This document shows, in pieces, positions 16,395 to 22,012 of a stretch of DNA of 64,000 nt. This DNA is from Dysgonomonas sp. ZJ279 (GTDB lineage: Bacteria > Bacteroidota > Bacteroidia > Bacteroidales > Dysgonomonadaceae). The stretch spans positions 248,001 to 312,000 of the forward strand of contig NZ_JAAKEL010000001.1 of assembly GCF_011039205.1 (NCBI RefSeq), given 5' to 3'. Positions within the stretch are counted from its first letter, which is position 1, and the number at the start of each line of letters is the position of its first letter. The position numbers were made by a program, and so were the translations under genes. Under the pieces are notes generated by a model that was not told the DNA's origin, did not search any database, and saw nothing but the letters and a program-made list of their open reading frames with translations.

Positions 16395-17396
16395 ATGCCT
16401 AAAGTTTCAATCTTGATGCCTGTCTACAATGCCGAGTTATATATTGCTCAGGCTATTGAAAGTATCATTACCCAGACCTTTACCGATTGGGAATTGATAC
16501 TTATCAATGATGGCTCAACTGATAGGAGCGAGGCAATAGTATCGAAATACAAAGACAATCGGATTTATTACTTGAAGAATACCGGAAATATTGGCTTAAT
16601 CAAAACGCTTAATCGTGGTATCGATTATTGTGGCGGTGAATATATTGCCCGCATGGATGCCGATGATATTTCTTTTTGTGACAGATTGGAAAAGCAGGTG
16701 GAATTCTTAGATAAGCATCCCTCGCATATTATGTGTGGAACAAATGCATTGGTTATAAACAATTTTAATGATGTTACAGGTCGGATAAGGAATCTGGCAA
16801 GTAATAATCTATTACAGATAAATCTGTTATTCTCCGATCCTTTTGTACATCCGAGTATGATGATACGCCGCAATATCTTAATCGAAAATAGGTATGACGA
16901 AAGATATAAGCATGTCGAGGATTATGAATTGTGGTGTAGGATTGCTAATCTGGGAGAAATAGCGAATCTTAAAAAAGAACTATTCTTATATCGTTGGCAC
17001 AATTCGAATGTATCCGTTTTGAATGCTGATACACAAAGCATACTGAAAGATAAAATCATTATCGATGGATTAAAAGAACTCGGTATTCAGCCAAGTGAAG
17101 AGGAACTATATTGTCACAAAATTACATTTCAATTATATGCTTTAGGTAAGAAACAAGAAGTCTCGATAGATCAATTTGATAATATAGCCGCTTGGTTTTC
17201 CAAACTGACTCGCCAGAATAAGATAAAAAGGAAATACAAACAATCTGATTTTATAGCATTTATTTGGAGTCGGTGGGCTGTTTTATGTATCTCTCAGAAA
17301 AAATATAACAAGCTGCTTTTTCCTAAATTTGCTTCATACAACCCGATTGTATTAGTAAAATTAATAAAGCTGGTTTGTATTTTAAGCCGTAAATAA
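16395..17396 (+). CDS. Family 2 glycosyltransferase
   Basis: A 333-residue GT-A fold glycosyltransferase. The N-terminus PKVSILMPVYNAELYIAQA, INDGSTDRS (near 36-44) and the metal-binding MDADD (near 89-93) are standard GT2 features. EDYELWCRI (near 176-184) corresponds to the conserved ED acceptor/base motif. It would transfer a sugar onto a lipid-linked oligosaccharide. It starts 9 bp after the fucosyltransferase gene, and its stop codon overlaps the start of the LicD gene by one base. Confidence 0.92.
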   Translation: MPKVSILMPVYNAELYIAQAIESIITQTFTDWELILINDGSTDRSEAIVSKYKDNRIYYLKNTGNIGLIKTLNRGIDYCGGEYIARMDADDISFCDRLEKQVEFLDKHPSHIMCGTNALVINNFNDVTGRIRNLASNNLLQINLLFSDPFVHPSMMIRRNILIENRYDERYKHVEDYELWCRIANLGEIANLKKELFLYRWHNSNVSVLNADTQSILKDKIIIDGLKELGIQPSEEELYCHKITFQLYALGKKQEVSIDQFDNIAAWFSKLTRQNKIKRKYKQSDFIAFIWSRWAVLCISQKKYNKLLFPKFASYNPIVLVKLIKLVCILSRK

Positions 17397-18202
17397 TGAA
17401 ACAAGATATAGAAGATCTAAGTGTATATAATCCCGAAGGTTCTGAGCTAAGAATATTGCAACTGAAAATGTTTGATATTCTTGTTTCGGTAACAGATATC
17501 TGCAATAAACACAATATTCCCTATTGGATAAGCGGAGGTACTTTACTAGGTGCTAAGCGTCATGGAGGCTTTATCCCTTGGGATGATGATATCGACATCG
17601 AACTTATGCGCAGAGACTATAAGAAGCTGCTTAAAATACTTCCTGGGGAGTTGCCTGACAGCCTCTATCTGCAAACGCCGAAAGAGAAAAGCTATCGATT
17701 GCTATTCTCAAAAGTAAGAGATCGGTTCTCTATTGTCTATTCCGAAGAGGAAGATATGGCTTGTTATAAAGAAAAGGGTATCTTTATAGATATATTTTCC
17801 GAAGAGAGGAGTTACAGATGGCTTAAAAACAGTGTAGATTTCTTTTATGGTCGTGCATTCAGACGATTAAAGCGTGGACGACCTTTCCATTCGGCAAAAT
17901 ATTTCTATGAATATTCTATCTCTTTGCTGCTTTACCCGATTGGGGTTGTTTCTATGTGGGTAGCAAGGGCAATCTGTTCGGTCACTAAACCCGACAATAT
18001 CTTGCATAGCTATGGTATCGGTAACTCGACCAACCACAATGCGCAATATATGTTTCCATTAAACAAAATAGAGTTTGAAGGGAAGTCTTTTTCAGCTCCT
18101 AAGGATGTTGATAAATACCTGACTAAGCAATACGGAGATTATATGAATATTCCACCTAAAGATAAGCGGCTTACGCACTTTCTTAAAGTGGAATATCTAT
18201 GA
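17396..18202 (+). CDS. LicD family nucleotidyl/phosphotransferase
   Basis: A 268-residue protein with the LicD core: PYWISGGTLLGAKRHGGFIPWDDDIDIEL (about 40-69), where GGTLLGA and WDDDID are the nucleotidyltransferase-fold motifs. LicD proteins add phosphocholine or other phosphate-linked groups to surface glycans. It is the last gene of the glycan cluster, overlaps the GT2 gene by one base, and is convergent with the HU/LysM gene 14 bp away. Whether choline, ethanolamine or another group is transferred cannot be told from sequence. Confidence 0.92.
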   Translation: MKQDIEDLSVYNPEGSELRILQLKMFDILVSVTDICNKHNIPYWISGGTLLGAKRHGGFIPWDDDIDIELMRRDYKKLLKILPGELPDSLYLQTPKEKSYRLLFSKVRDRFSIVYSEEEDMACYKEKGIFIDIFSEERSYRWLKNSVDFFYGRAFRRLKRGRPFHSAKYFYEYSISLLLYPIGVVSMWVARAICSVTKPDNILHSYGIGNSTNHNAQYMFPLNKIEFEGKSFSAPKDVDKYLTKQYGDYMNIPPKDKRLTHFLKVEYL

Positions 18203-18216
18203 AATGATCTTGGACT

Positions 18217-19449
18217 TTAATTAGTTTCAGATATTATTTGTCCCTCCATTTTCTGAGCTTTCTTTACCTCTTGTGGATTGGTCGGATCGACATTATATTT
18301 ATCTAAAGATGGAATGACCAATCTTGTACCGATCGGCACATTATTCGGATTTCGTATCTTTGATTTATTCTCCTGATAGATATATACCCAAAAAGATTTA
18401 TTCCCATAGTATTTCAGAGCAATCAAGCGGAGGGTTTGTCCTTCTCGAATTGTTTCTTCACCGAGGCTTTTGCTCTTGGTATTAGATTTTATTACCTCTT
18501 CATTAACTGCATCCTTGGTTATTTCTGGCTTATTTGGAATTGAATCTTTTACGGTATTTACCGTTGATACGATATTTATTGTATCTGTTTTTCTTGGATT
18601 AAGATTATCTTTTTGTTCAGTTATTATTGCAATATCAATAGGTTCTTTATCACTAAAGAATCTGGATATTTCGTTAAAGAATAAGCCTCCTATCGTAAAG
18701 CAAGCAAGCATAATTGCAATAAAGAAGCCAAGATAGATATATCTCCATTTTCGGGAAGATTGCTTCGACGACTGATATTCGTCTTCTATATCTCTATCCT
18801 CTAAAAATGTAGTAATTTCTTTTTTCTCATTTTCTACAATTGGGAGTTCAGTTTCCTTTTCCTCTTCCTTTATTATTACAGCATCTTCTTTAGGGTCTGA
18901 TATATCTGATTTACGATCTTGTGTAGAATCTATCTCCGGGCTTTGATCTTCGATTATAATAGTATCTTCCGTTACCTCCTCTTGTATTTTATCTTCAGAC
19001 TTAGGATTCTCATTAACGATTTCTTCTATGCTATCTTCCTCTAAAATTGTTACCTCGTCCGTACTGTTATACTCATCATTTCCGTCTGCATTGAATGCCT
19101 CGTCTTCTATATTGTCAAAAGAAACACCATCTTCTAAAATTATACTTTCGAAATGAGAGAATGGTAGGTTGACAGCTTCGCGAAGAGATTTATCGGGAGC
19201 GAAGCTTAACTTATAATGAGCTGCTATTTCTATGGCTTCGCCCGTATTAACGTCTACACTTCGGCGAGAGTTAACTTTCACTAATTTGAACGTGCCAAAA
19301 TCTTTAATCTTTACAGGCTCATTTTTTTCTATATTTTCTGTGATGAGTGCAATTAATTCGCGCAAAAATAATTCTGCATCTTTCTTCGTAATCTCCTGCT
19401 TTTTAGCTAAAAGGTCGATTAAATCCTGTAGTGTAAGTCGCTCATTCAT
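18217..19449 (-). CDS. HU-family domain fused to a transmembrane segment and LysM domain
   Basis: A 410-residue protein with an unusual domain order. Residues 1-95 form an HU/IHF-like DNA-binding domain (KIKDFGTFKLVKVNSRRS near 47-64). Residues 100-226 are a highly acidic, low-complexity linker. Residues 237-258 form one membrane span, preceded by KQSSRKWR, so the positive-inside rule predicts an N-terminus in the cytoplasm. Residues 334-382 form a LysM domain (REGQTLRLIALKYYGN to VPIGTRLVIP) that would lie in the periplasm and bind peptidoglycan. It overlaps a short HU gene by 8 bp. The architecture suggests a link between nucleoid and cell wall, but that function is inferred. A membrane-anchored regulator is an alternative. 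Confidence 0.88.
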   Translation of the reverse strand: MNERLTLQDLIDLLAKKQEITKKDAELFLRELIALITENIEKNEPVKIKDFGTFKLVKVNSRRSVDVNTGEAIEIAAHYKLSFAPDKSLREAVNLPFSHFESIILEDGVSFDNIEDEAFNADGNDEYNSTDEVTILEEDSIEEIVNENPKSEDKIQEEVTEDTIIIEDQSPEIDSTQDRKSDISDPKEDAVIIKEEEKETELPIVENEKKEITTFLEDRDIEDEYQSSKQSSRKWRYIYLGFFIAIMLACFTIGGLFFNEISRFFSDKEPIDIAIITEQKDNLNPRKTDTINIVSTVNTVKDSIPNKPEITKDAVNEEVIKSNTKSKSLGEETIREGQTLRLIALKYYGNKSFWVYIYQENKSKIRNPNNVPIGTRLVIPSLDKYNVDPTNPQEVKKAQKMEGQIISETN

Positions 19450-19732
19450 TTACCTCTATTTTTTTAAGGTTATCTTTTATAGTCTGTCCCGGGCGGAAAG
19501 CTAATGTAATCTTTGGAGGAATGAGAAATCGCTGTTTCGAAACAGGATTTACAGAGATGCGTTCACCTTTTTTCTTTGTTTCAAACAAACCAAAACCTTG
19601 AATATTGATAGAATTGCTATCTTCAAGATTCGTATTAATAATGGATACGGTAGCATCAAGTGTATCTGATGTTTGTCGTTGTGTCCACCCTAAGCGTTTG
19701 GCTAAGGCAGCTATTAATTCCTGGTTTGTCAT
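19442..19732 (-). CDS. HU family DNA-binding protein
   Basis: A 96-residue HU/IHF-like protein. It has the N-terminal helices (NQELIAALAKRLGWTQRQTSDTLDATVSIIN) and NIQGFGLFETKKKGERISVNP (near 43-63), which corresponds to the beta-saddle and DNA-binding arm. The arm tip differs from classical HU, as is common in Bacteroidota paralogues. It precedes and overlaps the HU-TM-LysM gene by 8 bp, so the two HU domains are made together and may form heterodimers, which is an inference. It begins 19 bp after rimO. Confidence 0.9.
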   Translation of the reverse strand: MTNQELIAALAKRLGWTQRQTSDTLDATVSIINTNLEDSNSINIQGFGLFETKKKGERISVNPVSKQRFLIPPKITLAFRPGQTIKDNLKKIEVNE

Positions 19733-19751: not shown

Positions 19752-21050
19752 TTAGGAAACTATTTCTGCATATAAATCGAAAGGTTGTGCACCTGTTATT
19801 TTAACGTTATAGAATTCGCCGATGGTCAGCGATTTGTCTTTGTTGATCAATACTTCCGGATCTACCTCCGGAGAATCATATTCGGTTCTTCCTATATAAT
19901 AATCCTCTTCTTCTTTGTCAATGATGACTTTAAGGATTTTATCTATTTTTTGTTCATTGGTCTCTAATGCAATTCTTTCTTGCAAAGCCATTAGTTGATC
20001 CATTCTCTCTTGCTTAATAGCATCGGGAATACTATCCTTATAGTTGTCATACGCATAAGTTCCATCTTCGTGAGAGTAAGGAAAAGCTCCCATACGTTCG
20101 AACTGTACGTCTTTTACGAACTGCAATAGTTCATCAAAATCTTTTTGTGTTTCTCCGGGATGTCCTACCATTAATGTTGTACGAATATGAATGCCCGGAA
20201 CTTCTTCTCTTATTTGTTTTAAGAGATTATATGTTTGTTCTTTCGATATATTTCTGCGCATCTTGGTCAACATGTTGTCACTAACATGTTGTAAAGCGAT
20301 GTCGAGGTATTTGCAGACATTATCATTCTCGCGCATTACTCGCAATAAGTCTAAAGGGAAGTTTGTAGGATAAGCATAATGTAGACGAATCCATTCCACT
20401 CCTTCTATTTTTGCAATACGTTCAACCAGTTCAGGTAATTTCATATTTTTATACAGGTCTAACCCATAAAAAGTCAAATCCTGAGCGATCATCTGAAATT
20501 CTTTAACTCCCGATGCGACTAAACCACGTACTTCTTCTTCTATCTCCTCTATCGCTCTTGACTGATGCTTTCCTGTCATGATAGGAATAGAGCAATAAGA
20601 ACAAGTACGGTTACATCCCTCTGATATTTTAAGGTAGGCATAGTGCTGAGGAGTAGTAATGCTACGCTCCAGAGCCATATCCTGATTATATGATTTTCCT
20701 AAATCGCTGATTAATGTTTTCCAGTTGAACTTACCGTAAAAATTATCGACTTCGGGAATCTCGGCTTTTAGCTCGTCCATATACCTTTCAGTAAGGCAGC
20801 CCATTACAAATAGCTTATTAAGCCTACGCTCTTTTTTTGCTTCGGCAAATTCAAGAATCATATTTATCGATTCTTCTTTGGCATCGCCGATAAATCCACA
20901 TGTATTGATTACTACGATTTCTCCTTCCGATTTTTCGGGATCGTGTTTTACAGTATAGCCATTTGCTAATAGTTGCTTCATAAGCAACTCTGAATCTACA
21001 AGGTTTTTCGAACAACCAAGAGTTATGACGTCTATTCTATTTTTCTTCAT
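19752..21050 (-). CDS. rimO: Ribosomal protein S12 methylthiotransferase
   Basis: A 432-residue radical SAM enzyme that adds a methylthio group to an Asp of ribosomal protein S12. The N-terminal UPF0004 domain starts IDVITLGCSKNLVDSE, supplying cluster cysteines along with NTCGFI and a third Cys in VMGCLTERY. The radical SAM motif C-x3-C-x2-C is in EGCNRTCSYCSIP (near 145-157). A C-terminal TRAM domain ends the protein. The spacing and the GCSKNLVDSE motif distinguish RimO from MiaB. It lies 8 bp after ftsY. Confidence 0.95.
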   Translation of the reverse strand: MKKNRIDVITLGCSKNLVDSELLMKQLLANGYTVKHDPEKSEGEIVVINTCGFIGDAKEESINMILEFAEAKKERRLNKLFVMGCLTERYMDELKAEIPEVDNFYGKFNWKTLISDLGKSYNQDMALERSITTPQHYAYLKISEGCNRTCSYCSIPIMTGKHQSRAIEEIEEEVRGLVASGVKEFQMIAQDLTFYGLDLYKNMKLPELVERIAKIEGVEWIRLHYAYPTNFPLDLLRVMRENDNVCKYLDIALQHVSDNMLTKMRRNISKEQTYNLLKQIREEVPGIHIRTTLMVGHPGETQKDFDELLQFVKDVQFERMGAFPYSHEDGTYAYDNYKDSIPDAIKQERMDQLMALQERIALETNEQKIDKILKVIIDKEEEDYYIGRTEYDSPEVDPEVLINKDKSLTIGEFYNVKITGAQPFDLYAEIVS

Positions 21051-21058
21051 CCTAAAAA

Positions 21059-22012
21059 TTACTCACCAAACAAGCTATCCACAAATTCTTTTCGTCTAAA
21101 TACCTGAAGGTCTTCTATGCCTTCGCCCAGTCCGATGTATTTTACCGGAATCTTGAACTGGTCTGAAATACCAATTACTACACCACCTTTAGCAGTCCCA
21201 TCCAGTTTAGTGATAGCAAGTGCTGTAACATCGGTAGCTGCTGTAAATTGAGTGGCTTGTTCGAATGCGTTTTGCCCTGTCGAGCCATCAAGAACCAATA
21301 AGACTTCGTGCGGAGCTTCGGGTATGATTTTATCCATTACTTTTTTGATTTTGGATAATTCATTCATCAAACCTATTTTATTATGAAGACGCCCTGCTGT
21401 GTCTATTATCACAACATCCGCATTGTTCGCTTTAGCAGAACTCAATGTATCGAATGCTACAGATGCAGGATCAGATCCCATTGCTTGTTTTACAACCGGT
21501 ACGCCGACTCTCTCTCCCCAGATAACCAATTGTTCTACAGCAGCAGCTCTAAAGGTATCGGCAGCCCCGAGATAAACAGATTTGCCTGCTTTCTTGAACT
21601 GATTGGCTAGCTTTCCTATTGTAGTTGTTTTACCTACACCATTAACTCCTACAACCATTATTACATAAGGTTTTTTGTCTTCAGGAATGCTGAAGTCTTC
21701 GGTATCCGTTGTATTGTTTTCAGTTAATAATGCAACAATTTCTTCTCTTAGAATATTGTTTAGTTCTTCTGCATTTACATACTTGTCTTTCTCTGCACGA
21801 GCTTCTATCCGTTCTATAATCTTCAGGGTTGTATTGACGCCTACATCAGAAGTAATCAGTACCTCTTCAAGATCATCAAGCACATCCTCGTCAACCTTCG
21901 ATTTTCCGGCTACAATTCGTGATAGTTTAGAGAACATCGATTCTTTGGTTTTTTCGAGCCCTTTATCTAATGTTTCTTTTTTCTGTTTTGAGAAGAAATT
22001 AAACAATCCCAT
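21059..22012 (-). CDS. ftsY: Signal recognition particle receptor FtsY
   Basis: A 317-residue SRP-type GTPase that docks ribosome-nascent chain-SRP complexes at the inner membrane. A short basic N-terminal helix (GLFNFFSKQKK) replaces the long acidic A domain of E. coli, as in other Bacteroidota. The N domain is followed by the G domain with GVNGVGKTTTIGKLA (near 123-137), DTAGR (near 205-209) and TKLDGTAKGG (near 269-278). It heads a possible transcript with rimO and the two HU genes, separated from DUF4295 by a terminator. Confidence 0.96.
   Translation of the reverse strand: MGLFNFFSKQKKETLDKGLEKTKESMFSKLSRIVAGKSKVDEDVLDDLEEVLITSDVGVNTTLKIIERIEARAEKDKYVNAEELNNILREEIVALLTENNTTDTEDFSIPEDKKPYVIMVVGVNGVGKTTTIGKLANQFKKAGKSVYLGAADTFRAAAVEQLVIWGERVGVPVVKQAMGSDPASVAFDTLSSAKANNADVVIIDTAGRLHNKIGLMNELSKIKKVMDKIIPEAPHEVLLVLDGSTGQNAFEQATQFTAATDVTALAITKLDGTAKGGVVIGISDQFKIPVKYIGLGEGIEDLQVFRRKEFVDSLFGE

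Follow-up and report, generated by a model that had tools for sequence, protein, structure and literature searches.

HU-L of Dysgonomonas sp. ZJ279, a membrane-anchored HU protein with a LysM-like domain and a candidate part of a nucleoid to cell-wall link

In the window, the 64,000-nt stretch of Dysgonomonas sp. ZJ279 DNA analysed here, we confirmed that a single open reading frame encodes an HU-TM-LysM protein, designated HU-L, in which an HU domain, a long acidic linker, one transmembrane (TM) helix and a LysM-like domain follow one another. The original prediction had interpreted this protein as a possible tether between nucleoid and cell wall, and this interpretation was partly supported: together with a small HU protein encoded by an overlapping gene, HU1, HU-L could form a trans-envelope link, with DNA held by the HU1:HU-L pair and peptidoglycan contacted by the LysM-like end. 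We prefer this reading to its rivals but advance it tentatively, as possible rather than probable.

The HU-L gene, its domains and predicted topology

The gene, its parts and its upstream neighbours are located as follows, with the evidence for each in brackets.

18217..19449, minus strand: HU-L, whole gene (410 aa)
19168..19434, minus strand: HU domain of HU-L, residues 6-94 (PF00216, AlphaFold2/Foldseek HU fold, arm comparison)
19147..19170, minus strand: family-specific motif NLPFSHFE of HU-L, residues 94-101 (alignment, motif counts)
18754..19146, minus strand: acidic linker of HU-L, predicted to be disordered and cytoplasmic, residues 102-232 (composition, pLDDT)
18676..18732, minus strand: single TM helix of HU-L with a positive N-terminal flank, residues 240-258 (hydropathy 2.37, model helix 226-266)
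18463..18675, minus strand: predicted periplasmic spacer of HU-L, residues 259-329 (pLDDT < 50 at 268-325)
18295..18462, minus strand: divergent LysM-like domain of HU-L, residues 330-385 (Pfam, NCBIfam, AlphaFold2 model, PDB profile match)
19442..19732, minus strand: HU1, a 96 aa HU protein with an NP arm (PF00216 E 1.5e-21; 8-nt overlap with the HU-L start)
19752..21050, minus strand: rimO-like radical SAM/TRAM gene, upstream neighbour (Pfam; ends 19 nt before HU1)
21059..22012, minus strand: ftsY-like SRP GTPase gene (PF00448 E 2.8e-76; 8 nt before rimO)

The HU domain that the original prediction had assigned to this minus-strand frame was recovered by Pfam, AlphaFold2 and Foldseek in agreement. 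PF00216, of which the genome contains four matches in total, matched residues 6-94 with an E value of 1.7e-23 (83.1 bits against a cut-off of 22.4), residues 1-100 were modelled with a pLDDT of about 77-93, and HU/IHF or histone-like chains made up nearly all of the matches listed by Foldseek against the PDB. The AlphaFold2 run used 13 sequences, and its overall pTM of 0.28 leaves the domains unplaced relative to one another. In HU and IHF, the RNP motif of the arm carries the intercalating proline; the HU-L arm reads SVDVNTGE and is devoid of an RNP-type proline. At the end of the domain lies the family-specific motif, in which N94, P96, F97 and F100 are invariant among 17 aligned homologues.

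Behind the motif, an acidic linker of roughly 125 residues had been described originally, and the composition bore this out, with 47 acidic and 11 basic among the 134 residues from 99 to 232; the net charge of the linker was below zero in all 41 HU-L proteins compared. AlphaFold2 gave pLDDT values below 50 at residues 119-228 and 268-325, which predicts disorder on both sides of the membrane segment. Four proteins of genera g6, g13 and g15 (L052, L053, L054 and L055) reach 669-721 aa because their cytoplasmic linker is much longer. Residues 240-258 are the sole hydrophobic segment of HU-L and are preceded by 15 residues with a net charge of +4 and followed by a net charge of −2, in keeping with the one span with positive charges on its HU side that was originally proposed. 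Among homologues, this was evaluated in 37 of the 46 collected proteins, the 9 truncated or split ones being left out: each of the 37 has one TM segment, and the N-terminal side is the more positive one in 32, while the charge bias is absent in five. The charge bias, which is the one line of evidence used here for orientation, suggests an N-in/C-out topology, in which the LysM-like domain would be located in the periplasm.

HU1 and HU-L, two unlike HU proteins and a proposed heterodimer

The genes of this region form the row ftsY-rimO-HU1-HU-L, of which HU1 had gone unreported in the original prediction. Of 46 loci encoding a long HU protein (near-copies included), 38 also have a separate HU1, and a rimO match was found in 115 of 144 loci, with the HU start no more than 100 nt after rimO in 97 of the 115, in a set that contains many duplicates or short stretches. 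On the other side of HU-L, the plus strand carries a LicD-family gene (window positions 17396-18202) that faces HU-L, ending 14 nt away from the stop codon of HU-L; the two are probably unrelated. Elsewhere in genome G033 of genus g6, at positions 574-1709 of locus L068, a weak small HU-like ORF is followed by a TM-LysM ORF, which may be a paralogous pair.

We then compared the arms of 42 HU-L and 38 separate HU1 proteins, near-copies included, after four of the 46 long ORFs had been dropped for their HU1-type N-terminus. An NP was found in the arm of 36/38 HU1 and only 1/42 HU-L proteins, the mean arm charge was +4.7 for HU1 and +0.9 for HU-L, and the HU1 arm was the more positive one in 37 of 38 pairs. 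Conversely, N-x-P-F-x-x-F was found in 41/42 HU-L proteins (with P, A, S or I accepted at the third place) and in none of the 38 HU1 proteins. The DNA-binding HU domain of the original prediction stood as an HU fold, but the tethered HU is atypical in its near-neutral and mostly NP-less arm. Given such an arm, without the proline, HU-L itself may not bind DNA, and DNA contact would depend on the overlapping HU1 gene.

In genera g5, g10 and g11, seven genomes have two HU domains within a single open frame preceding the TM segment (one of the second domains is weak, E 0.024), and L064 and L070 each contain two PF00216 stretches. HU1-like and HU-L-like domains in one chain were seen in L064, L070, L084, L085, L088, L116 and L122, a natural counterpart of single-chain IHF, and the single-chain IHF structures 2iie/2iif resemble these fusions by profile match. 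The unlike arms, the motif confined to HU-L and the single-chain fusions, together with the g10 chains described below, make up the main case for HU1 and HU-L as a heterodimer. Such a pair would resemble the alpha/beta heterodimers of IHF and HU in combining two unlike subunits of HU fold, while HU-L differs from the subunits of those heterodimers in being membrane-anchored and without an intercalating proline.

Soluble HU1, with its DNA-bending-type arm, and the proline-less, anchored HU-L would thus most likely form an IHF-like heterodimer. DNA would be gripped mainly via HU1, HU-L would keep the dimer at the inner membrane through its acidic tether, and the disordered spacer beyond the membrane would carry the LysM-like domain to peptidoglycan. 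Nucleoid and wall would thereby be joined by protein, and this link may have a role in nucleoid positioning.

A different picture emerged from genus g10, where, apart from the fusions, members have an HU1-like domain followed only by a C-terminal HU-L piece with the N-x-P-F-x-x-F motif. Of 28 g10 open frames, five carry an NP in the first HU domain, and the arm of this domain, parsed in 22 of the 28, has a mean charge of −2.2. In 25 of 30 g10 loci, a separate small HU was not observed upstream. The arms of the anchored protein are also without HU-type sequence in g3 and g12. Judged from these acidic or unrecognisable arms, it is as if DNA bending had been given up in that clade, and at least in the clade of g10 the HU fold may be used for pairing or as a scaffold more than for bending DNA. 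The mostly acidic, NP-less arms of g10 weaken the tether reading and strengthen a rival one, namely that HU-L is a membrane scaffold whose HU fold and N-x-P-F-x-x-F motif would bind HU1 or another protein, with no DNA held at the wall. This would be a landmark comparable to FimV/HubP, in which an acidic organiser on the cytoplasmic side is positioned by a periplasmic LysM. The loss of charge and proline from the HU-L arm, with the motif invariant in the 17 aligned members, agrees with a scaffold, as do the motif-bearing remnant in g10 and the domain composition of FimV. We rate this explanation somewhat below the tether; against it speaks that the window and its genus retain, next to HU-L, a separate HU1 whose arm is of the DNA type (charge +5 and NP in the window).

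The likeness to FimV/HubP also has its limits. The accessible text of PMC12918733 describes a periplasmic LysM, one TM region and an acidic cytoplasmic part, which are shared with HU-L, and in addition a C-terminal TPR domain; an HU domain is not mentioned in that text. In HU-L, the LysM-like domain is C-terminal, so that the domain order is reversed, no TPR was listed by Pfam, and an HU domain is found instead.

The LysM-like C-terminal domain and its distribution among relatives

The LysM domain of the original prediction held up in its fold, but it is divergent and scores under the Pfam threshold. PF01476 gave 15.7 bits on HU-L against a gathering cut-off of 20.9, and at E 0.01 it was matched by only one of 17 family members; the NCBIfam LysM model matched HU-L at E 2e-5. 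In the AlphaFold2 model, strand 330-333, helices 340-348 and 351-360 and strand 376-379 were placed with a pLDDT of about 93-95, which gives residues 330-379 the beta-alpha-alpha-beta fold of LysM. A family profile searched against the PDB matched Kbp and two LysM-named chains. Kbp, which carries the PDB name potassium-binding protein, is the closest solved relative of the C-terminal part (E 0.0025 with the single sequence and 6.1e-8 with the profile). Peptidoglycan binding by the predicted LysM-like domain would be plausible. Alternatively, the domain would bind another ligand, as a Kbp-like LysM, and the protein would be an HU anchored in the membrane whose periplasmic part acts as a sensor or spacer; the rank of Kbp among solved structures and the sub-threshold Pfam score point in this direction, and we hold it to be unlikely, because LysM-named chains match the profile as well and the predicted location outside the membrane suits a wall ligand.

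A survey of HU-TM-LysM proteins, as the original prediction had proposed, found them well beyond the window. At E 0.001, the window protein was matched in 60 of 61 family genomes, some of them via an ordinary HU alone, and the match extended over the LysM part in 56 of 61. Profile A2 at 1e-16 matched 94 of 100 genomes, including 61 of 61 well-assembled ones, again in some cases via the HU part alone. Within the order, profile A1 at 1e-12 matched 39 of 148 genomes, and 25 of these 39 matches, the own genome included, covered both HU and LysM parts in 16 families, most of the others being ordinary HU. Among the 198 genomes of a phylum sample, 78 were matched; 22 of these matches are long frames that begin with HU, and they all belong to a single family (f131) of a different class. 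The five of the 22 that were fetched each encode HU and LysM in a single frame that has an HU upstream. Conservation across the family genomes indicates that the HU-TM-LysM architecture is no chance product.

A T10 tract at the end of the TM helix in a sister clade

In genera g2, g3, g5, g9, g10, g11 and g12, which belong to a sister clade of the window's genus, CTT TTT TTT TTC or a near variant encodes the last part of the TM helix. In the 54 sister-clade genomes with a fetched locus, the tract is T10 in 46, T9 in two, T11 in one and absent in four, and it is cut by a contig end in one (G425). The exact T10 lies at the helix end in, for example, L046, L047, L049, L051, L056-L065 and L070, with LysM in frame 0 or +1. 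Across the 48 genomes with LysM, the domain follows the tract in frame 0 in 29, in frame +1 in 19 and in frame +2 in none. The tails read in the other frames end within 25 codons in 96 of 96 cases (median 10), and they are mostly positively charged (80/96); at control positions in the tract genes, a stop within 25 codons occurs in both frames in 66% of cases, so that short other-frame tails alone are modest evidence. All 29 g10 genomes with T10 have CTT TTT TTT TTC, with the four codons invariant, whereas the residues P, G, G and A nearby, which are also invariant, use their commonest codon in 38-59%. Two codon phases of the tract were observed, of which phase 2 was seen in three genomes.

A rimO tree of 77 rows places the genomes bearing the tract in a single branch (support 100/100), to which g8, with LysM in frame and without a tract, also belongs. 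On this tree the +1 state requires eight changes, seven of which are forced by well-supported branches. The HU-L gene of the window has no T run of 7 or longer and thus no tract. Likewise, no T or A run of at least 9 was found in 28 fetched family genomes of g1, g6, g8, g13, g14 and g15, except for a T9 in the g8 locus L112, past the LysM match, and among the runs listed for loci L126-L144 there was only an A9 in L131 (L139 gave no HU).

Several other origins of the tract and the split genes were considered. Codon use of the genes predicts a T10 in 2-5% per sequence as genus means (0.6-7% for single sequences, 44% for one), and exact T10 runs number 6-18 per genome on both strands in seven genomes searched; these low expectations, together with the invariant tract codons in g10, led us to reject chance or codon bias. 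A hairpin 5′ of T10, which could act as slippage stimulator or terminator, was also rejected: the raw folding energy is −8.3 compared with −3.5 in neighbouring windows, and this is not unusual against codon-preserving recodings (mean z −0.13, 0/49 at p <= 0.05). Assembly errors are an unlikely source of the split genes, as the G022 genome consists of a single contig and as many as 19 genomes show the +1 state. DNA phase variation of the tract, in place of recoding, is possible in this sample of one genome per species; a length of 10 in 46 of 49 tracts is unexpected for a fast-varying tract.

According to the accessible text of PMC3711429, transcriptional realignment sites are often homopolymers of at least 8, and the direction of realignment need not be kept among orthologues, in contrast to ribosomal frameshifting, where it is kept. 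The homopolymer tract would therefore fit transcriptional realignment, and the constant +1 would fit ribosomal frameshifting. Its occurrence in two codon phases favours a phase-blind process, namely RNA polymerase slippage with one U dropped, which we rate above ribosomal shifting as the most likely mechanism. Like dnaX of the Thermus type, a programmed transcriptional realignment gene described in the accessible text of PMC3711429, the sister-clade gene has a conserved homopolymer of at least 8 at a reading-frame transition; it differs in that the T10 lies in TM-coding sequence and joins HU-TM to LysM, and in that the direction is constant (+1). On balance, the T10 of the sister clade is probably a programmed recoding site, operated most likely by RNA polymerase slippage, through which one gene would give two products, an anchored HU-fold protein ending in a short tail that is usually basic, and a LysM-extended form.

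Five genomes keep HU-TM but have lost LysM: G053, G427 and G434, which form one branch, G433 and G050. No LysM was found in any frame of the fetched stretch in these five, and a g10 LysM query against the whole genomes matched none of the five while matching all six control genomes. They fall in three places on the rimO tree, and their tract is absent in four and a T9 in G050. Five genomes on three branches have thus lost LysM and the intact T10 alike, which, with the tract and its frame pattern, suggests recoding into a long and a short isoform; exceptions to a strict rule are G016 (T9) and G032 (T11), which keep LysM, and g8, which keeps LysM without a tract. The core that is retained is the HU-fold part with its membrane anchor, and LysM is the optional part. 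That HU-L is a membrane-bound regulator, in which the LysM-like end would read wall state and alter HU1:HU-L DNA binding and with it local transcription or supercoiling, is permitted in principle by a LysM-like end outside and HU inside in the AlphaFold2 model, but is very improbable in view of the long, predicted disordered helix flanks, which make a poor lever, the dispensability of LysM in some relatives and the lack of any signalling or protease domain by Pfam; the 'wall-state sensing' suggested originally found no specific support.

Discussion

Coupling of an HU-class protein to the wall is not a new idea. A chromosome-wall link was reportedly proposed for HU-CCDC81_bac/SPOR proteins by Burroughs and colleagues in Cell Cycle in 2017. 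Those proteins (PF18174, PF18175, PF05036) are like HU-L in having an HU-class part inside, a hydrophobic stretch and a peptidoglycan-binding-type domain outside. HU-L differs from them in its classical PF00216 HU, its long acidic linker, LysM instead of SPOR and the HU1 partner gene; it scores 14.9 bits against 35 with PF18175, and neither SPOR nor PF18174 was listed for it by Pfam. The same genome encodes a second HU-class/wall-domain protein (L072, positions 919-1884, contig C12), with HU-CCDC81_bac_1 and _2, a hydrophobic stretch and SPOR. In the literature searched, which most subscription journals lay outside, we found no paper naming an HU-TM-LysM protein or the T10 tract.

Weighing against the HU1:HU-L tether are the near-neutral HU-L arm, the predominant loss of the DNA-type arm in the sister clade, the sub-cut-off LysM score, Kbp as the closest structure, LysM losses on at least three branches and the five homologues without charge bias. 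If the T10 tract is indeed recoded, the cell could set the share of membrane anchors that are also tied to the wall, and slippage would be a means of adjusting how much of each of two forms is made of a cellular membrane protein. To our knowledge, how chromosomes are held and moved in Bacteroidota is poorly known. A recurrent gene pair with the potential to link DNA to the wall, HU1/HU-L next to ftsY-rimO, in a genome that also encodes an independent HU-CCDC81/SPOR protein, would make nucleoid-envelope coupling in these bacteria directly testable.
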